A model generated the notes under the pieces. That model was not told where the DNA came from. It saw nothing but the letters and a program-made list of their open reading frames with translations, and made no database searches. A program made the translations under genes and the position numbers. From NCBI GenBank assembly GCA_945885545.1, contig CAMCYZ010000018.1, positions 1 through 32,196 of the forward strand: a stretch of 32,196 nucleotides of DNA, in the 5' to 3' direction. Shown here one piece after another: positions 3,853 through 31,673 of this stretch (position 1 is the stretch's first letter; the number at the start of each line of letters is the position of its first letter). The DNA comes from Spirosoma fluviale. Its GTDB lineage: Bacteria > Bacteroidota > Bacteroidia > Cytophagales > Spirosomataceae.

Positions 3853-6525
3853 TCATCCCAATTTTACCAAAGCCTCCTCAATTGCTTTAATCTTAGCATC
3901 TGCATCAACGAGTTTATCTCTTTCTCTTTGAACCAAGTCAGGTGCTGCGTTGGCTACAAATCGCTCGTTAGCGAGTTTTGCTTCTACTGATTTTTTGAAG
4001 CCTTGGGTGTATTCCAGCTCTTTTTTAAGATTTTCAATTTCGGCAGCTACATCCAAGTTTTCGCCCAAATCAATGCCAAATTCATCACCTTTTATCACCA
4101 AACTCATACCTTTTACAGAAGTACTCACAAAAGTGATTTCTGATAGGTTGGCCATTTTTTTTGCTAAATCTACGAGATGAGCATATTTGGCCGCGTCTTG
4201 GGTATTGATGCTCAATGGCAAGGCCTCTTTTGGCGACATTTGTTTTGATTGGCGGGTATTTCTTACCCACGAAACGAACTCAAACAAGATTTCGAAATCG
4301 GCCAATATTTTGCTATCTACTTCCCCACCTTTCGGGAATTCTTGAATACAAATGGAGTCATTCTCGGTTCTTTGTTGAATATTTTGCCAGATTTCTTCTG
4401 AAATAAACGGTGTCCACGGATGCACCAAACGCATCAATTCCTCGAAGAATTCGAGAGTAGCATCGTATGTTTCTTGTTCTATTGGCAAGCTTTGGCCGTC
4501 CACATAAGCCGGCTTTATCATTTCGAGATATTGCGAGCAGAAGTCGTTCCATATTAAGTTGTAAGTCACCAAAAGGGCATCTGACATACGGAATTTGTCG
4601 TAGTGGTCGAGTGCCTCGGCGATGGCGGCGTTGAGTTTTGCTCTAAACCAGTCAACTGCAACTTTATTTCCTTGACTTTCAAGCGGTGTTCCCTGAGCGG
4701 AGCCGAAGGGAGAAGCCACGTTCCAACCTTTCACCAATCTGAATGCATTCCACATTTTGTTGGAGAAATTTCGGCCTTGTTCTACCAGTTTTTCGTCGTA
4801 AGGGAGGTCGTTGCCTGCTGGCGAACTGAAAAGCATTCCTGTACGCACTCCATCGGCTCCAAATTTATCAATCAAATCCAAAGGGTCTGGCGAATTACCC
4901 AAAGATTTTGACATTTTTCGACCTTGTTTATCTCTTACGATCCCGGTTAAGTAAACGTTTTTGAACGGAAATGTGCCTTTGTATTCGTATCCAGCAATAA
5001 CCATTCTTGCCACCCAGAAAAATAAAATTTCGGGTGCAGTTACTAAGTCGTTGGTTGGGTAATAATAGTTGATATCTTCGTTTTCAGGATTTTTAAAACC
5101 ATCAAAAACCGAAATTGGCCACAACCAAGAGCTAAACCAAGTGTCCAACACGTCTTCGTCTTGGGTAAAGTCAGCGGAGGTAACATTTTTGCCTTGTTGG
5201 GTATTGGCTATTTCAACAGCAGCTTCTATTGATTTGGCAACGATACAAGTACCATCGGCCAAATAGTAGGCCGGAATACGATGTCCCCACCACAATTGAC
5301 GGCTGATGCACCAGTCGCGAACGTTTTCCATCCAGTGGTTGTATGTATTCTTGAATTTTGGCGGAATGAGCTGAATAGTGTCATTCATCACGTTTTCGTG
5401 AGCTGGCTTACTCAAACGCTCCATTTTCAAAAACCACTGTAAAGAGATTTTTGGCTCAATAACGGCTCCGGTTCTTTCAGAAGTGCCTACGTTTGATTTA
5501 TATTCTTCTACTTTCACCAAATTGCCAGATTCCTCCAGCATTTTAATGATTTTTTTACGGGCAATAAATCTATCTTCACCAACTAAAATCTGTGCTTTTT
5601 CATTAAGTTTTCCGTCATCAGTAAGGATGTCAATTACTTCCAACTTGTGTTTTTCGCCAAGAGCAAAGTCGTTTTGGTCATGGGCAGGAGTTACTTTCAA
5701 ACAGCCCGTTCCAAATTCCATCTCCACATATTCGTCGGCAATGATGCTGATTTCTCTGTCGATTAACGGAATTCTTACTTTTTTGCCTATTAGGTTTTTA
5801 TATCTTTCATCATCAGGATGCACACAAATGGCTGAGTCTGCCATAATGGTTTCTGGACGTGTGGTTGCGATAATAATGCCTCTCGACTCCGCTCGAGGTG
5901 ATATTTCGACAAAGTTATATTTGATGTGCACCAATTTTGAAGGCATTTCTTTGGTGATAACCTCTTCGTCAGAAACCGTTGTTTTGGCTTGGGGATCCCA
6001 GTTTACCATTCGGTAACCTCTGTAAATATCACCTTTTTGGTGTAAATCCACGAAGACGTCGATTACGGCATCATAAAGGCTATCTTCCATCGTGAATCGG
6101 GTTCTATCCCAGTCGCACGAAGCACCAATTTTACGCAATTGTTTCAGGATAATTCCACCGTATTTTTCGGTCCATTCCCAGCAATATTTCAGGAATTCGT
6201 CTCTAGTCAAATCTGCTTTGTTGATGCCTTGCTCTTTGAGCATAGCCACCACTTTTGCTTCCGTTGCTATCGAAGCGTGGTCTGTTCCAGGAACCCAACA
6301 AGCTTCTTTTCCTTCCATTCGAGCCTTGCGGATCAGTACATCTTGTATGGTATTGTTGAGCATGTGTCCCATGTGCAACACGCCTGTTACGTTGGGCGGC
6401 GGAATGACGATGGTGTAAGGTTCTTTGTCTTTGTTGGGCGTGGATTTGAAGAATTTATTTTTTTCCCAATAAGCATACCACTTATCTTCTATTTCTTTCG
6501 GACTATATGTTTTTGAAATTTCCAT
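3853..6525 (-). CDS. valS: valyl-tRNA synthetase
   Basis: Class I aminoacyl-tRNA synthetase charging tRNA-Val with valine, cytosolic and essential. The 890-residue frame is normal in length. Visible: PPPNVTGVLHMGH with the HIGH-type motif HMGH at 51-54, the editing (CP1) domain with ATTRPET, GRKMSKS with KMSKS at 537-541, an anticodon-binding domain, and a C-terminal charged coiled coil. Two segments look foreign: SPRAESRG near residue 210 in the editing domain and SPFGSAQGTPLESQG near residue 605, just before the anticodon-binding domain. Both are encoded by REP-like palindromes listed separately. The frame stays open, so the protein is probably functional with two small extra loops. A TATTTTTG box (6561-6568, minus) about 36 bp upstream may be its -7 element. 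Confidence 0.97.
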   Translation of the reverse strand: MEISKTYSPKEIEDKWYAYWEKNKFFKSTPNKDKEPYTIVIPPPNVTGVLHMGHMLNNTIQDVLIRKARMEGKEACWVPGTDHASIATEAKVVAMLKEQGINKADLTRDEFLKYCWEWTEKYGGIILKQLRKIGASCDWDRTRFTMEDSLYDAVIDVFVDLHQKGDIYRGYRMVNWDPQAKTTVSDEEVITKEMPSKLVHIKYNFVEISPRAESRGIIIATTRPETIMADSAICVHPDDERYKNLIGKKVRIPLIDREISIIADEYVEMEFGTGCLKVTPAHDQNDFALGEKHKLEVIDILTDDGKLNEKAQILVGEDRFIARKKIIKMLEESGNLVKVEEYKSNVGTSERTGAVIEPKISLQWFLKMERLSKPAHENVMNDTIQLIPPKFKNTYNHWMENVRDWCISRQLWWGHRIPAYYLADGTCIVAKSIEAAVEIANTQQGKNVTSADFTQDEDVLDTWFSSWLWPISVFDGFKNPENEDINYYYPTNDLVTAPEILFFWVARMVIAGYEYKGTFPFKNVYLTGIVRDKQGRKMSKSLGNSPDPLDLIDKFGADGVRTGMLFSSPAGNDLPYDEKLVEQGRNFSNKMWNAFRLVKGWNVASPFGSAQGTPLESQGNKVAVDWFRAKLNAAIAEALDHYDKFRMSDALLVTYNLIWNDFCSQYLEMIKPAYVDGQSLPIEQETYDATLEFFEELMRLVHPWTPFISEEIWQNIQQRTENDSICIQEFPKGGEVDSKILADFEILFEFVSWVRNTRQSKQMSPKEALPLSINTQDAAKYAHLVDLAKKMANLSEITFVSTSVKGMSLVIKGDEFGIDLGENLDVAAEIENLKKELEYTQGFKKSVEAKLANERFVANAAPDLVQRERDKLVDADAKIKAIEEALVKLG
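4691..4710 (-). repeat. REP-like palindrome inside valS, copy A
   Basis: On the minus strand this reads CCCTTCGGCTCCGCTCAGGG: outer arms CCCT/AGGG around a core TCGGCTCCGCTC. It is translated in frame as part of SPFGSAQG in ValS. A second small inverted repeat, CTTGA-aag-TCAAG, lies beside it at 4671-4683 and may belong to the same element. The core matches copy B at 5879-5898 except for one G/A. Confidence 0.65.
5879..5898 (+). repeat. REP-like palindrome inside valS, copy B
   Basis: Plus strand reads CCTCTCGACTCCGCTCGAGG: outer arms CCTC/GAGG around core TCGACTCCGCTC. It is the same core as copy A in the opposite orientation, with both outer arms changed so pairing is kept. It is translated on the minus strand as PRAESRG within the ValS editing domain. 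Confidence 0.6.
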
Positions 6526-14105: not shown

Positions 14106-14689
14106 TCAAATCAAGAACTCAAACAAGTCGGGCTTGTCGTTGATGTAGGTAAACTGCACAATATATTGTTCAAGACGCTCGATGAGGGCTGGGAATTTTT
14201 CTTTTTTCCTTGGCCTTCCATCACTTGCAAGTCATCAAACGGATGAACAAATAGTCCGCAGAGCTCTTTTACATATATTTGAGCGGCATTGAAAGAATAA
14301 TTATACATATCGTTTATCAATATTACCTCAACCCATTCTTTTCTAAATATTTTGACTTGCTTTATTTTTTGTGCAGGAGTAGTTGGTATAAAAATATTGC
14401 CTTTTATGCCCTTTTTTCTACAGGCATAAGTCACTCCTTGTGGATGATTTCCGGCACTTGCACACACCACACCTTTTGCTATGTCTTCAGCAGATATAGA
14501 TGCCATTTTGTTATGAGCTCCTCTGATATTGTATGTCCTTACCACCTGCAGCTCCTCTCTTTTCAGATAAATATAGGCCTGGTATCTTTAAGAAAGATTT
14601 TGATTAAACATCAAAGGAGTTTTAAAGGCTATGTTTTTAAGCCTAGTGGCCTCCGCGTAAATGTTTTCAAGTTCTATGCCGTTGTTCAT
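14106..14689 (-). pseudogene. ilvA: threonine dehydratase relic
   Basis: Threonine deaminase makes 2-oxobutanoate for isoleucine synthesis. This copy is broken three ways. Starting at ATG 14689 the frame reads NNGIELENIYAEATRLKN, meets a TAA at 14588-14590, and continues as YLKREELQVVRTYNIRGA. The PLP-binding lysine of the usual SYKIRGA is Asn here (codon 54, nt 14528-14530). The frame is then good through CASAGNHPQGVTYACR and HPFDDLQVMEGQG, where roughly half the gene is missing. Near 14200 the frame shifts into the extreme C-terminus, KFPALIERLEQYIVQF and NDKPDLFEFLI, ending at 14106. It converges on the helicase stop with one base between them. A functional ilvA must lie elsewhere if the strain makes isoleucine. 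Confidence 0.85.
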
Positions 14690-20286: not shown

Positions 20287-20294
20287 TATATTTG
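20287..20294 (+). promoter_or_regulatory. candidate -7 box of the toxin-antitoxin pair
   Basis: TATATTTG fits TAnnTTTG, 21 bp before ATG 20316. No -33 TTTG is present at the right distance. Its position argues against the TTG at 20292 being the start codon. Confidence 0.35.
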
Positions 20295-20315
20295 CTTAAA
20301 ATAGATTTAATCAAA

Positions 20316-20540
20316 ATGACAATTCAAGAAATAAAAAATGAGTCTGGTGAAAAAACTGGTGTTTTTATTCCGATTAGAGAATGGGAGTTGATTCAATCGA
20401 AATTTCCAGATATTGAGACACTAGATCAGGATATTCAAAAGTGGGAAAAAGACTTTATTGACACACGTCTTCAATCTATAAGTGCGGAAAGATTGAAACC
20501 AATTGAGCAACTTTTTGAAGAATTAAACAAAAGAATTTAA
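20316..20540 (+). CDS. antitoxin of a ParE/RelE-type toxin-antitoxin pair
   Basis: 74 residues: TIQEIKNESGEKTGVFIPIREWELIQ, then a charged helical C-terminal part ending in PIEQLFEELNKRI. This fits a small antitoxin with a short N-terminal strand-helix DNA-binding or dimer module and a toxin-wrapping helix. The frame is open to a TTG at 20292, but that codon lies inside the probable -7 box, so ATG 20316 is chosen. Its stop TAA overlaps the toxin start by one base (TAATG), a hallmark of coupled translation in such operons. Exact antitoxin family was not recognised. Confidence 0.75.
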   Translation: MTIQEIKNESGEKTGVFIPIREWELIQSKFPDIETLDQDIQKWEKDFIDTRLQSISAERLKPIEQLFEELNKRI

Positions 20541-20839
20541 TGAAATTCTTATTTTTTGATGAAGTCTCAATAGATTTATCCGATGCGAGAAAATGGTATA
20601 AAGACCAAAAAGAGGGATTAGAGGAGGAGTTTTCTGATGAAATAAAAAGAGCACTTTTAAAAATTCGTCGTTATCCTTTCGGCCATTCAATTAGATATCG
20701 GAATATAAGAATTGCACACTTAGAAAGATTTCCATACAATATTCATTTTTATATAGATGAAGTTTTAAGTCAAATTGTTATTACTGCTATAGTTCATCAA
20801 AAAAGACATCTAAGTACATCGATGAAAAGAGGAAGATAA
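20540..20839 (+). CDS. ParE/RelE-superfamily toxin
   Basis: 99 residues with the family layout: FDEVSIDLSDARKWYKDQKEGLEEEF (helical hairpin), IRRYPFGHSIRYRNIRIAHL, then the core strands FPYNIHFYIDEVLSQIVITAIVHQKRH. The C-terminal strand with basic ends (VHQKRHL) is where RelE-like RNases keep their basic residues, while ParE members poison DNA gyrase; sequence alone does not decide which. The frame is intact, and the antitoxin overlaps by one base. This is the only complete toxin-antitoxin pair in the window; two other nucleotidyltransferase pairs and one ParE pair are broken. Confidence 0.88.
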   Translation: MKFLFFDEVSIDLSDARKWYKDQKEGLEEEFSDEIKRALLKIRRYPFGHSIRYRNIRIAHLERFPYNIHFYIDEVLSQIVITAIVHQKRHLSTSMKRGR

Positions 20840-26590: not shown

Positions 26591-26622
26591 CATAAAAGCC
26601 TTCCAAACGGAGGGCTTTTATG
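26591..26622. terminator. bidirectional terminator, 14-bp stem
   Basis: CATAAAAGCCTTCC and GGAGGGCTTTTATG form a 14-bp stem with one G-T pair and an AAAC loop. It ends the DUF2911 transcript on one side and overlaps the stop codon (26618-26620) of the dehydrogenase gene on the other. Confidence 0.88.
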
Positions 26623-27565
26623 GTTTTATGACGTTTTGAGATTTTCCTTCCAAGAAATTTTTTAGATTTTCAAAAACAATTTCGATGAGTTTCTTGCGTG
26701 CTTCCACACTTGCCCATGCAATATGAGGGCTGACTTTACAGTTTTTTACATTTGCCAAAATATGGCCTGTTGCGGGCGGTTCAAAAGCTAAAACATCTAA
26801 ATATGCACCGGCTATTTCATTTGAATTTAGAGCGTTTTTTAAATCCTCCTCATTTATCAATCCACCACGTGCAGTGTTTATTAAAATCGCCGTTTTTTTC
26901 ATTTTCGAAAAAGCCGAGCTATTCATAAAGCCTTCATTTTCAGTTGTCAATGGGCAGTGCAAGCTTATGTAATCAGAAGAGTTAAATAGTGTGTCTATAT
27001 CAGCTTCTGTAATTCCAGCTATTAGAGATTCCAAGGGTGTTCTCTTATTGATAAGTACTTTCATTTCAAAAGCAAGTGCAATCTGAGCCACCTTTTGGGC
27101 GATATTACCAAAACCCACCAAGCCGATGGTTTTGCCGGAAAGCTCAGTGAGGGAGTTGTCATAATAACAAAAATCAGGCTGTGAAGCCCATTTCTCAAAA
27201 CTAGCATGTTCGGCCAATCGATTGGCAAAAGAAAGTATCATGGCAAAAACTTGCTGAGCTACTGAATTAGAACTGTAATTTCTGGCGTTGGTGACAGTGA
27301 TGCCCAATTCGTTTGCTGCCTTTATGTCTATGATATTGTATCCTGTGGCCGTAACTCCAATATACTTGAGTTTTGGGAGTTTTTGCATAGTTATTCTGTC
27401 CAAAACTACCTTATTCGTTAAAACTATTTCGGCATCTTTTGCTCTTTCCAAAACCAAGTCTGCGGGAGTTCTGTCATAATGAATAAATTCACCAAAAGAA
27501 TTAAAAACCGAAAGGTCAATCTCTTGTGGATGAATGGTATAAGAATCTAAAAAAACAATTTTCAT
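26618..27565 (-). CDS. D-isomer-specific 2-hydroxyacid dehydrogenase
   Basis: 315-residue NAD-dependent cytosolic dehydrogenase. The Rossmann motif TIGLVGFGNIAQKVA (147-160) and the catalytic triad are visible: Arg233 in NTARGG, Glu262 in DVLAFEPP, and His281 in SPHIAWAS. The substrate may be glycerate, hydroxypyruvate or a related 2-oxoacid; HprA-like glycerate dehydrogenase is the closest general type by eye. Its start overlaps the stop of the AAA ATPase gene by 4 bp (27562-27565), so the two are translationally coupled, though no functional link is known. Confidence 0.88.
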   Translation of the reverse strand: MKIVFLDSYTIHPQEIDLSVFNSFGEFIHYDRTPADLVLERAKDAEIVLTNKVVLDRITMQKLPKLKYIGVTATGYNIIDIKAANELGITVTNARNYSSNSVAQQVFAMILSFANRLAEHASFEKWASQPDFCYYDNSLTELSGKTIGLVGFGNIAQKVAQIALAFEMKVLINKRTPLESLIAGITEADIDTLFNSSDYISLHCPLTTENEGFMNSSAFSKMKKTAILINTARGGLINEEDLKNALNSNEIAGAYLDVLAFEPPATGHILANVKNCKVSPHIAWASVEARKKLIEIVFENLKNFLEGKSQNVIKP

Positions 27566-28977
27566 AAATCTGCATTAAATAAGTTTTCCAGTGTTAAAGT
27601 ATTTTGTACTAATCCCAAAGAATTTTCATTTTCTTTCAATCCAAATGTGGTCAAAATGGTCAGAAAAACAGTTTTTTTGGTTTTGGTTGCTTCAGTAAAA
27701 ATAGCTATTTTTTTTCTTAAATTCATTGCATATTCTTTACTTATCACAAATTCCGAAATACTGAACATTGCTTCACATATATTGATTATTTGATCTTTTC
27801 TGTCTAAGAGTAAATCAATTTGAGCCTTTCCAAGGTCCGTTGCTCCGTGCCAAGTGGCAGTATTAGAAAATACCCCAATTATTCCTAAATTTTGTTTTAT
27901 TTGGTTAATATGCTGAAGCCAAACCAGCTCATAGGCATATCCTGTCCAGTTGGCATCGGACATGAAATTTATCCAATTGTCAGGGTCAATTTTAGAATTC
28001 AGAATATATTTGAGATAGAAAAGCGAGTAAAAATCAGTCAATTGATATACATTTTGGTTTACTTTTTTGTTAAATGATTTATACTTTCTTATAAAACCAC
28101 TTTCTTCCAACTCACTGAGTGTTTTCGAAATTGAGCCGCCGTCTTTTAGTTTAAGTTGATCTATCATTTCTGTTCTTAATAAACCGGCATTTTTAGTTGC
28201 AAGTGCTTTTACTATTTGTTCGTGCTTACTATAATTATTAAAAATAGATTTAAAAAGCACATTAAATTCGTTTCTGAGTGCTCCAGATTCCGAAAAACAT
28301 ATTCTTTCAATGTTTTGAGCTGCACTTTCGCCCTTCACTATTTCATCGAGGTAATAAGGAATTCCGCCAAATGCCATATAAAGCTGCACTATTTGATATC
28401 TTTCCAATATGATTCCTTTGTAACGAAGAAAATCCTCCGTTTCCCTTAAGTTGAAGGGATTTAGTTTTATTCTTTTTGTAAGCCTATTGTGTAATCCGCC
28501 TCTATTATTTATCAATTTGTTTATCATCCAAGAAGCCGCTGAGCCACATACTACAAGCAAAATATCTTTTCTGTCCGATGCCCAATGATTCCAAAAGTGT
28601 TCAAGAACGGAGATGAAATTTGATTTTGGAGTATCAAGCCACGGTAGTTCATCTATAAAAATAATCTTCTTCTCTTCTTTTGACAATTCTATATGTGCCT
28701 TCAATTGTTCGAATGCCTCAAACCAAGTCAGCGGTAGGTCAAATTCTCGTTTTGAAATATTTTTTAAAGTTTGGGAAAAGTTCAATAATTGATTTTTTAA
28801 ACTAGAGTTAGCCATTCCTGTTAAATAGAATGTAAAGGTTTGGCCAAAAGACTGCCTAATTAGATAGGTTTTTCCTACTCTTCTTCTTCCATAAATTGCA
28901 ACAAATTCAGGTTTTTTGCTTTTAAGAGCATCCAATAATTGCTTTTTTTCCTTGGTTCTTCCTATTAACGATTCCAT
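27562..28977 (-). CDS. AAA-type ATP-binding protein (DUF234/archaeal-ATPase-like)
   Basis: 471 residues. Walker A AIYGRRRVGKT (27-37), Walker B IIFIDE (105-110) with LPWLD, and a sensor-type VVCGSAASWM (about 142-151) form the P-loop ATPase core. A winged-helix-like region follows (about 255-300) with LRTEMIDQLKLKDGGSISKT. The C-terminal domain (about 370-430) has KAQIDLLLDR with Asp388 and INICEAMFS with Glu402, the place of a PD-(D/E)xK nuclease-like motif; the lysine expected two residues after Glu is Met404. The family is widespread in archaea and Bacteroidota, often thought mobile or toxin-antitoxin-like, but its function is unknown. Just upstream lies the 52-bp palindromic array, and its start is 6 bp before the array's first element. 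Confidence 0.85.
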   Translation of the reverse strand: MESLIGRTKEKKQLLDALKSKKPEFVAIYGRRRVGKTYLIRQSFGQTFTFYLTGMANSSLKNQLLNFSQTLKNISKREFDLPLTWFEAFEQLKAHIELSKEEKKIIFIDELPWLDTPKSNFISVLEHFWNHWASDRKDILLVVCGSAASWMINKLINNRGGLHNRLTKRIKLNPFNLRETEDFLRYKGIILERYQIVQLYMAFGGIPYYLDEIVKGESAAQNIERICFSESGALRNEFNVLFKSIFNNYSKHEQIVKALATKNAGLLRTEMIDQLKLKDGGSISKTLSELEESGFIRKYKSFNKKVNQNVYQLTDFYSLFYLKYILNSKIDPDNWINFMSDANWTGYAYELVWLQHINQIKQNLGIIGVFSNTATWHGATDLGKAQIDLLLDRKDQIINICEAMFSISEFVISKEYAMNLRKKIAIFTEATKTKKTVFLTILTTFGLKENENSLGLVQNTLTLENLFNADL

Positions 28978-28983
28978 TTTAAA

Positions 28984-29205
28984 ACGCTATAATTAGCGGT
29001 AAAGGTAAATTATATACACAAAACCGCCAAATATAGTTTTATATTAAGCGGAAAATATCAAAAATGTATTTAAAACCGCTAGTTATAATTATATATTTAG
29101 CGGAAAATATAAAATAGGTATATAGAACCGCCGAATATAAATATATATTTGACGGAAATAATTAAATATATGTTGTAAACCGCTAATTATGAAATTATTA
29201 AGAAC
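28984..29205. repeat. 52-bp-period array of alternating CCGC/GCGG palindromes
   Basis: CCGC motifs begin at 29024, 29076, 29128 and 29180, exactly 52 bp apart. GCGG motifs begin at 28996, 29048, 29100, and as ACGG at 29152, also exactly 52 bp apart, 24 bp after each CCGC. Between them is AT-rich TATA-like DNA so that each CCGC-to-GCGG interval is an inverted repeat (for example CCGCTA...TTTAGCGG). Three full units and two partial ones are present. It fills most of the 314-bp gap 28978-29291; the rest holds only a candidate GH95 promoter. Confidence 0.85.
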
Positions 29206-29291: not shown

Positions 29292-31673
29292 GTGAAAATT
29301 AAAATCTTGCTTTTAGTCCTTTTTGCTCAAAGCATTCTTGCTCAAAAAATACCTCTTAAACTTTGGTACAATAAACCCGCAGAATACTTCGAAGAGGCAC
29401 TTGTACTAGGAAACGGCACTCAAGGAGCCACAGTTTTTGGAGGTACTAAAACAGACAAGATTTTCCTTAATGATATCACGCTTTGGTCGGGCGAACCAGT
29501 TAATCCGTACATGAACCGCGAAGCCTTTAAAGCATTTCCAGCAGTGAAAGATGCACTAAAAAATGAAAATTACAGGGCAGCGGATTCTCTGATTAGGCAA
29601 ATGCAAGGAAAGTATTCGGAATCTTACGCTCCTCTGGGAACCATTTATATCGATTTTGGGCATGAAAATGTATCAGATTATTACAGAGAACTATCACTAG
29701 ATGAAGCTATTTCTAAGGTGACTTACAAAACTGGTAATACCGTAATTACAAGAGAATATTTTTATTCTTATCCTGACAAGTCGTTTATTATCAAGCTAAA
29801 AAGCTCGGAAGCTGGCAAATTAAATTTCACTTTGAGGTTTAATTCGCAAATGAAATTCGAGGTAAAAACTACAGGGAATCAGGTACAGTTTGCAGGCAGA
29901 GCACCCATTAAGGCTGAGCCAAACTATGTGAATAATAAAATAGACCCCGTAGTTTTTGACCAAAAAAGAGGTACTCGGTTTTTTGGAAGTATTTTAATTA
30001 AAAGTATTTCTGGTAAAAGCGTAAAAACCGATTCTACACTCGGCATAAAAAATGGCACTGAAGTAATACTCGCTGTTTGTATGGCCACGAGTTTCAATGG
30101 CTTTGACAAAGACCCCGAAACGCAAGGGAAAGATGAAAAAGCAATTGTTAACAGTCAGATTGCTCAATTGATTCATAAAACCTATTCGAACCTCAAAACG
30201 AGGCACTTGAGCGATTATCAGAAATTCTATAATCGAGTATATTTAGACTTAAAACCAGACCTCAGCATAAACCTTCCAACTGACGAAAGGCTGAGAAGAT
30301 ACGCCAAAGGTGCAGAGGACAAATATCTCGAAACCCTTTATTTTCAATATGGAAGGTATTTGCTGATAAGTTCGTCACGAACTGAAGGTGTGCCTGCCAA
30401 CCTGCAAGGTTTGTGGAATCCGCATATAAGGCCACCTTGGAGCAGCAACTATACCATGAATATTAATGCTGAAGAGAATTATTGGCTGGCTGAAAACACC
30501 AATTTGTCGGAATTACACACGCCGTTTTTGAGTTTCGTTGAAAATCTCGAAAAAACTGGGCGAATTACAGCCAAAACCTTCTATAATGCCAATGGTTGGG
30601 TTTGCCACCACAACTCCGACATCTGGGCTATGACCAATCCTGTTGGTGACTTTGGCAAAGGCGACCCCGTTTGGGCCAACTGGGCCATGGGAGCTACTTG
30701 GGCCAGCACGCACCTCTGGGAGCATTATAGCTATACCAAAGACAAGGAATTTCTGAAAACAAAGGCGTATCCGCTCATGCGTGGGGCAGCAGAGTTTTGT
30801 TTAGATATGCTCACCAAAGACAAAAACGGACATTATATCACAGCCGTTGGAACCTCGCCCGAGAATGTTTATATCACTGACAAAGGCTATAAAGGTGCCA
30901 CACTTTATGGTGCTACGGCTGATTTGGCTATGATTCGTGAGCTTTTTATAGACATCATAGAAGCAACAAATGTGCTGGGCGGTGATTATGATTTCAAGAA
31001 CAAATTAGAGGAAGTTTTGGCCAATATGTACCCTTACCAAGTAGGCAAAAAGGGTAATCTACAAGAATGGTATTACGACTGGGAAGATGCCGAACCTCTG
31101 CACAGGCATCAGTCGCATTTGTATGGAATGTACCCCGGTAACCACATCAATATGGCCGAAACTCCTAGTCTCGCCAATGCAGCAAAAACAAGTCTCGAAA
31201 TCAAAGGAGATGAAACTACGGGCTGGTCGAAAGGCTGGAGGATAAACCTTTGGGCCAGACTTTTGGATGGCAACCGCTCTTACAAAATGTACCGCGAACT
31301 ACTCAAATATGTAGAGCCCGACGGTGTAAAAGTAAGCTATCAGCGTGGTGGTGGAACCTACCCTAATCTTTTTGATGCCCATCCGCCATTCCAGATTGAT
31401 GGCAATTTTGGTGGAGCTGCCGCAGTAGCTGAAATGTTACTCCAAAGCACCTCTGATAAGATTTACTTACTTCCTGCTCTTCCTGATGCATGGCAAAGTG
31501 GTTCGGTAAAAGGCCTTCGGGCGAGAGGGGGTTTCGAAATAGACCTAGAATGGGAAAATGGACAGCTGAAATCGGCCAAAATAACCGGAAAGCCAGGTGG
31601 TGAAACGGAGTTGGTTTATAAAGGAAAAACTAAAAAGATAAAAGCTGAAAATGGGGGCATTGTCAATTGGTAG
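29292..31673 (+). CDS. secreted glycoside hydrolase family 95 (alpha-L-fucosidase type)
   Basis: 793 residues. A signal peptide ([15 protein letters not shown]) follows a GTG start; no better ATG lies nearby. The N-terminal GH95 domain opens [21 protein letters not shown] and has [12 protein letters not shown]. The catalytic (alpha/alpha)6 barrel shows NIN (Asn390, Asn392), GTSPENVY with probable acid Glu524, [13 protein letters not shown] and [14 protein letters not shown] with Asp703, the residues corresponding to the Asn/Glu/Asp set of characterised alpha-1,2-L-fucosidases. The family inverts alpha-L-fucosyl or related (alpha-L-galactosyl) bonds in plant or algal glycans and glycoproteins. 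The protein likely acts in the periplasm. No polysaccharide-utilisation transporter genes adjoin it. Confidence 0.93.

Follow-up and report, generated by a model that had tools for sequence, protein, structure and literature searches.

The window, by which we mean the whole stretch of 32,196 nucleotides of Spirosoma fluviale contig CAMCYZ010000018.1 that was analysed, carries a gene for an ATPase of 471 amino acids on the reverse strand (27562..28977) and, upstream of it, a regular array of mirror-image sites (28984..29193). The protein comprises an ATPase_2/STAND-like ATPase, a winged helix (residues about 245-315) and a PD-(D/E)XK-like C-terminus. One syntenic flank of the ATPase unit is a gene of the 2-hydroxyacid dehydrogenase family (26618..27565, reverse strand). 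The other is a divergent gene for a glycoside hydrolase of family GH95 (29292..31673, forward strand), a neighbour which stays in place where the ATPase unit is absent. Elsewhere in the window, a short ORF at 14111-14545 resembles by eye part of a threonine dehydratase and is possibly a truncated gene, and two small adjacent ORFs at 20292-20839 have what we take, again by eye, to be the look of a toxin-antitoxin pair of the ParE/RelE kind.

Read in the orientation of the gene, on the reverse strand, the array is a putative operator ladder of eight half-sites with a 52-bp period, which form four facing pairs. The pair closest to the start codon (28993..29030) has the cores GCGG at 28996 and CCGC at 29024. 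The second (29045..29082) has its cores at 29048 and 29076, the third (29097..29134) at 29100 and 29128, and the fourth (29149..29186) at 29152 and 29180, where the core at 29152 is degenerate and reads ACGG. Seven of the eight half-sites pass a threshold of at most two mismatches in 10, and in the fourth pair only that at 29180 does so. The core starts are those given in the first-pass annotation, and its spacings of 24 bp from CCGC to the next GCGG and 28 bp from GCGG to the next CCGC are reproduced. The 52-bp period is also free of drift, as had been claimed, with TRF giving a period of 52 at 29020-29158 and 0% indels. Across the 315-bp intergenic region the top lag is 52, with an identity of 71% over 150 positions, and the best identity in 2000 dinucleotide-preserving shuffles (lags 20-120) is 53%. 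The region is 24% GC, in agreement with the AT-rich setting described. This confirms that an evenly spaced mirror-image array is present. A CRISPR array needs constant repeats and variable spacers; here the whole unit is conserved, copies of 104 nt being 69% and 71% identical in register, and the view that the array is unlike CRISPR is upheld. The array reaches almost to the start codon of the ATPase (28977) and so constitutes the upstream region of that gene.

By its profile match, the ATPase gene belongs to PDC-S27, one of the families that PADLOC lists as anti-phage candidates (phage-defence candidate, single gene 27, with ATPases of the ATPase_2/DUF234 type). The PADLOC profile PDLC04984 matches the protein with an E of 8e-191 over residues 1-467 (profile positions 1-473 of 474), and the assignment rests on this profile and not on the PD-(D/E)XK-like pattern, which lies outside the PADLOC definition. 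Pfam recognises ATPase_2 (E 1.4e-16), has a winged-helix match that is weak and below the cut-off, and finds no DUF234 in the protein at E 0.001. A phage homologue is annotated as 'archaeal ATPase, fused to C-terminal DUF234 domain'; with the Pfam assignment to ATPase_2, this makes the earlier label of a DUF234-type ATPase a fair one.

An AlphaFold2 model of the protein, made from a 57-sequence alignment, has a mean pLDDT of 90.9. Its top PDB match in Foldseek is 2qen, the Walker-type ATPase PABY2304 of Pyrococcus abyssi (E 4.2e-13), and the further matches include APAF-1, NRC2, STAND 6mfv and ORC/Cdc6 chains. The ATPase motifs K36 (Walker A), D109/E110 (Walker B) and R165 are intact in all 165 aligned proteins, that of the window included. 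Near the C-terminus a D388...E402-x-K404 pattern can be read from conservation as PD-(D/E)XK-like. The lysine of this pattern is kept in 163 of the 165 proteins, the exceptions being one homologue (L122), which has asparagine, and the window protein, which has methionine (M404, codon at 27766-27768 on the reverse strand). The nuclease of the window copy may therefore be inactive. Despite M404, this copy retains its array and its ATPase motifs.

In the window genome there are ten matches to the gene, some of them broken copies or fragments and two of them parts of a single copy. Where the 5' region of a copy is present, a ladder of other sequence can be seen by eye upstream, less regular in one case (L004). 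The ATPase copies of this genome possibly make up a birth-and-death family. The pattern GCGG-N24-CCGC occurs 18 times in the window genome, three of them in the window array, against 19 for the reversed control, and since there is no excess, no other target with this pattern was found. Broken or partial ATPase copies lie on contigs C5, C8, C236 and C301 (L006-L010), and upstream of some of them ladder-like DNA is still visible.

Arrays upstream of homologous genes

Absence of similar arrays next to homologous ATPase genes had been named in the first-pass annotation as the outcome that would count against its reading. This was checked in 197 loci, which gave 182 upstream regions, or 174 once near-identical proteins and short upstream regions had been dropped, and arrays of the same geometry were found upstream of homologues. 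In the last 250 bp of the 174 non-redundant regions, direct repeats of 10-mers (at most one mismatch) at a lag of 50-55 bp numbered 204, whereas downstream controls had 13 and shuffles about 15. Palindromes scoring at least 9 were present in 157 of the 174 upstream regions and in 55 of 164 downstream regions, which leaves 17 upstream regions in which none reached this score. In a count that uses no frame, 160 pairs of dyads lay 26-28 bp apart upstream, and no spacing reached 4 downstream. From this dyad-spacing analysis onwards, N in upstream DNA was taken as A.

Half-sites were framed with a family weight matrix at a fixed dyad distance, a procedure which biases towards the consensus and makes no use of protein residues. 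This framed 169 loci. In 154 of them 11 or more of 18 arm positions matched, and 146 of these also had a protein of at least 440 amino acids. Framed pairs fit a spacing of 27 or 28 bp by construction, and a larger count of facing pairs (212 of 225) contains them; the figure used is therefore that from pairs which took no part in the framing. Here, with spacings of 10-60 bp allowed, 84 of 99 facing pairs had a spacing of 27 or 28 bp. Back-to-back neighbours were looser, lying 23-27 bp apart in 114 of 142 cases. The facing pair is thus the rigid element, and pairs stack at about 52 bp, or five helical turns. The earlier description of sites that alternate in orientation at steps of nearly 26 bp thus needs adjusting: the alternation holds, and the more rigid spacing is that of 27 or 28 bp between facing half-sites.

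The length of the array varies. Across the 154 loci, each read with its own half-site, arrays had two (47 loci), three (36), four (51), five (10), six (6), seven (3) or nine (1) half-sites, so that 20 loci had at least five. The window array is one of the three with seven in this count.

The pattern is not confined to Bacteroidota, since facing half-sites in the family frame also occur in Butyrivibrio (Bacillota), in a Planctomycetota-labelled locus (L105) and in Verrucomicrobia-labelled loci. For homologues under about 33% identity, including one archaeal locus (L195), some symmetric sites were seen and no common frame or ladder was established. A copy in Wolbachia phage WO (L189, ATPase at 4995) has by eye two repeated units, in which facing CCGCGG-type arms surround a TATAAT-like box, and the family matrix did not frame these repeats. 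Upstream of the sister candidate family PDC-S01 there was a single repeat at a lag of 50-55 bp in 26 upstream regions (25 of PDC-S01 and L274, from 31 loci fetched, with a few uncertain starts). By eye, several PDC-S01 genes (L275-L304; e.g. L278, L280 and L283) show a single palindrome beside a -7-like element, but no 52-bp ladder.

The gene is carried by 15 of 61 genomes of the same family at an E of 1e-20 or better, and searches of the phylum and class at 1e-60 gave 21 of 395 genomes, with no more than three candidates scored per genome, and 36 of 295 genomes. A further 72 loci were added from named genomes. Matches were found in 101 plasmid records, seven of them covering 80% of the query, and in seven phage records, five of them covering 80%. 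The homologue set includes Emticicia, Segatella and Butyrivibrio plasmids as well as Wolbachia phage WO. Among viral contigs, one stretch fitted a pattern and none was confirmed.

The syntenic site was examined in nine other genomes of the same genus. In one (G047), 80 bp replaces gene and array, and in another (G705) the flanking genes are nearly adjacent. In four (G703, G704, G707 and G708) this site is occupied by another gene, of about 220 amino acids, and in the remaining three (G022, G702 and G706) the matches do not show both flanks side by side. G703 also holds a stretch (L215, 1078-1268) with no adjoining ATPase that is about 70% identical to the array. This stretch looks like an orphan array in decay, although both sequences are AT-rich.

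Half-site sequence and the winged helix

While the geometry is constant, the sequence of the half-site varies between loci, and also between paralogues within one genome. The consensus across the family is approximately ATA-T-T/C-T/C-n-G-C-n-A-A-A-A/T-C/G-T, and the differing cores that occupy one frame include GCCAAAA, GCCATAA, GGAGAAAT, GGCGGAAT, CGCTCAAA and TGGAAAAAT. Near-identical cores were found in none of 87 within-genome pairs, whereas identity-matched pairs would predict 2.9 (P 0.055), and the mean similarity of half-sites within genomes gave a P of 0.08. The half-sites of paralogues in one genome thus appear to differ more than expected as a trend only.

Residues of the winged helix vary along with the half-site. 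When half-site similarity in 146 loci is set against each of 471 protein columns, with a correction for overall protein identity, the strongest partial correlation is that of residue 279 (r 0.325), and no other column exceeds the 95% null maximum (0.21). Residues 280, 282, 292, 281 and 285 rank in the top ten as well, with z of 8.6 for 282 and 5.5 for 285. The top ten also holds columns outside the winged helix (6, 355, 353 and 148), all of them below the null maximum. In the model, residues 279-282 lie at the start of helix 281-292, the predicted recognition helix, and residue 307 lies between strands 296-300 and 309-313, in the predicted wing. The corresponding codons in the window are at 28132..28143 (279-282) and 28057..28059 (307), both on the reverse strand.

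At these positions residue and base go together as follows, with bases numbered from the dyad. Residue 279 goes with the base at -13: serine with C in 52 of 53 loci, asparagine with T in 36 of 45, aspartate with G in 16 of 20, threonine with C in 12 of 13 and glutamate with G in 6 of 9. Threonine at 282 goes with A at -16 (24 of 29 loci). Lysine at 307 goes with A at -11 in 71 of 81 loci and arginine with T in 25 of 35, and most of the other loci have unlike arms. The window protein has D279 and G at -13, and S282 with G at -16 in one arm and A in the other. Its N307 falls outside the K/R code at -11, and a paralogue in the same genome (L003) breaks the code at -13, having N279 and A.

Part of this covariation is explained by shared ancestry, because columns 132, 133 and 151 of the ATPase core reach z of 10-11.5 at -14 in a mutual-information scan. 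The top z of that scan belongs to the near-invariant column 107 and is an artefact of tiny variance. The permutation null of both the similarity and the mutual-information scans does not keep relatedness, and independent-pair tests were therefore run on a tree from which the winged helix had been left out. Pairs of 279N with T at -13 changed the same way 7.9 times and the other way 0 times (median p 0.008), 279D/E with G at -13 gave 7.7 to 1.0 (p 0.04), and 282T with A at -16 gave 8.4 to 0.2 (p 0.008). Serine, arginine or asparagine at 282 with G at -16 gave 6.9 to 0.4 (median p 0.03), and 307R with T at -11 gave 8.9 to 0 (p 0.004), the last being a test picked after the table had been seen. 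Two tests fell short of significance: serine or threonine at 279 with C at -13 gave 6.0 to 0.5 (median p 0.125), and 307N with A at -11 gave 3.2 to 0.3 (p 0.25).

The code was then applied to new loci, from the phylum of a Verrucomicrobia-labelled genome. These figures leave out L105, L229, L233 and L238 (one locus entered four times), L228 (the same as L094) and L190, as well as loci with fewer than 11 matching positions; L105, L228 and L190 had already served to derive the code. The code at -11 held in 25 of 26 arms. That at -13 was moderate, holding in 9 of 13 loci against about 4.4 expected from base frequencies, and that at -16 failed, with 10 of 26 arms. The sequence of the half-site therefore appears to be matched to the ATPase's own predicted DNA-reading residues, in part also in new loci.

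Possible roles of the ladder

A further pointer comes from the proximal dyad. TAnnTTT, which we take to be the -7-like promoter element of Bacteroidota, is found in 44 of 84 proximal dyad loops but, one repeat further upstream in the same arrays, in 4 of 31 (p 1e-4). TAnnTTTG beginning six bases past the dyad was found in 37 of 84 proximal loops and 3 of 31 one repeat upstream. The proximal loop of the window contains no exact TAnnTTT. In homologues the sites thus seem to sit over the promoter of the gene that encodes their putative reader, and as the proximal pair often encloses the -7-like element, binding should shut off that gene.

The array is probably the autogenous operator ladder of the PDC-S27 gene, bound by the ATPase itself. 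The first-pass annotation had offered an operator array for the adjacent AAA protein as one of its readings, and this one is strongly supported, both by arrays of the same geometry upstream of homologues and by the covariation of their sequence with the winged helix. Array, conserved geometry, diversification and covariation are all established at the level of sequence, and they point strongly to physical binding of the array by the ATPase. The winged helix of one ATPase subunit would read each half-site, with the start of the recognition helix (279 and 282) and the wing (307) setting the bases at -13, -16 and -11. A facing pair, in its fixed geometry of 27 or 28 bp, would accommodate two subunits, presumably as a dimer, and further pairs would align five turns upstream, so that a ladder of dimers coats the promoter. 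We infer, from the position of the sites, repression rather than activation. The bound ladder would cover the promoter and switch its own gene off, keeping a potentially harmful ATPase-nuclease at low copy, and the promoter would reopen if the protein were lost or diverted to another target. A role of the ladder-ATPase unit in defence, and a trigger for it, may be supposed. The PDC-S01 family may also regulate itself, with another geometry.

An extension of this reading, which we regard as rather unlikely, treats the ladder as a diversifying address tag. Each ATPase-nuclease would read its own ladder only, and the bound, phased polymer would silence the gene, hold the enzyme and act as a sensor. 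Many paralogues could share one cell, kept apart and free of cross-talk by the short code that joins residues 279, 282 and 307 to the bases at -13, -16 and -11, and infection or an incoming rival copy would disturb the bound polymer.

A tentative alternative, to which we give a similarly low weight, is that the ladder is chiefly a platform for assembly and holding. The ATPase-nuclease would polymerise on it through its winged helices in an inactive state, an infection that disturbs the promoter would release it or switch it on, and self-repression would be a by-product. Many arrays do exceed one pair, as the loci with four and with at least five half-sites show, the pairs are phased at about five turns, and PDC-S27 is a candidate defence family. 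The fold also resembles that of STAND/NB-ARC ATPases, some of which oligomerise. However, the 47 loci with only two half-sites have enough for plain repression, and in the window copy methionine replaces the lysine of the PD-(D/E)XK-like pattern, which makes release of a nuclease unlikely to be its role as it stands.

It is highly unlikely that the array serves as operator for another regulator, acting in trans, that by chance neighbours PDC-S27 genes. Binding by the ATPase itself does rest on inference, and two of seven annotated loci have a regulator nearby, a metal-sensing repressor after the gene in L190 and a helix-turn-helix gene before it in L191. However, no regulator is common to the seven, and the half-site follows the winged-helix residues of the ATPase. 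As paralogues of one genome differ in their half-sites, each would also need a regulator of its own.

Very improbable, too, is the proposal that the array serves as an end or a recognition site for a mobile element that went unrecognised, or consists of replicon iterons, both of which had been suggested for the window. Gene and array are missing together at the syntenic site in genomes of the same genus, there are several paralogues per genome, and homologues occur on plasmid and phage records, all as a mobile unit would have it. The array, however, lies on one side only, over the promoter, and although it comes and goes together with the gene, this speaks against a recognition end as such. 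No transposase, recombinase or replication gene was seen by eye among the listed ORFs of the window, and the repeats alternate in orientation and go with the ATPase gene, so that iterons do not fit either.

The least credible reading, in which the palindromes act as RNA stem-loops of the 5' UTR (an attenuator or ligand sensor), would suit inverted repeats immediately 5' of the start codon whose arms change in sequence yet stay complementary, but is rejected because mismatches between gene-strand arms are more often A-C (65) than G-U (42) in the 154 loci, the opposite of what RNA pairing predicts, and because a promoter-like element is enriched within the dyad nearest the gene; in addition, Rfam gives no match between 26000 and 32196, the lowest E being 0.42 at 18.5 bits where the gathering score is 117, and the fixed 26/52-bp phasing and the covariation with a DNA-binding domain would be unexpected for RNA.

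An autogenous operator ladder can be compared with several known systems. In fold, the window ATPase resembles STAND/NB-ARC ATPases, including PABY2304 (2qen), APAF-1, NRC resistosomes and ORC/Cdc6. The winged helix that follows the ATPase in APAF-1-like proteins is not, to our knowledge, known to read DNA; the winged helix of the window family carries a specificity signal and in this is more like ORC/Cdc6. Plasmid partition sites (centromeres) and iteron arrays are phased repeated sites upstream of an ATPase gene, as in the window. They differ in that no separate adaptor or replication gene was seen beside the window array, and that the half-sites here are inverted rather than direct, and diversified between loci.

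Autoregulated defence genes are known, and include toxin-antitoxin operators, restriction-modification C proteins, BrxR/CapW, CapR and RptR, according to the accessible part of the source (PMC12255303). As described there, a DNA-binding protein of the locus acts on the promoter of a defence gene, either its own or one next to it, which is the likeness. In those systems the reader is a dedicated regulator or antitoxin, whereas here it would be the STAND-like ATPase-nuclease itself, and the window has a phased ladder of up to eight half-sites. PDC-S27 is a common candidate, of which 3503 archaeal and 4562 bacterial copies have been counted (PMC12988326), and the family has also been counted in rumen genomes (PMC13356809). 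The accessible text of these two papers deals with counts and spread only, and ladder, geometry and residue-base code are absent from it. A mechanism for PDC-S27 was not found in the literature searched, nor was any account of the ladder, its geometry, the code or a STAND-like ATPase-nuclease as reader, in a coverage that takes in few subscription journals and some sources in part. Within that coverage, autoregulation of defence genes is already known, and the fixed ladder, the diversifying code and the ATPase-nuclease as reader are apparently new.

The ladder shows how the PDC-S27 protein may handle DNA, in terms of the domain that reads, the bases that are read and the spacing between them. 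The proposed recognition code allows the cognate site of a family member to be predicted from sequence, and the ladder may mark intact as opposed to decayed copies. We know of no earlier case of a STAND-like ATPase with a winged helix that reads a phased, self-specific DNA ladder. If true, such a ladder would be a new use of the STAND-like architecture.
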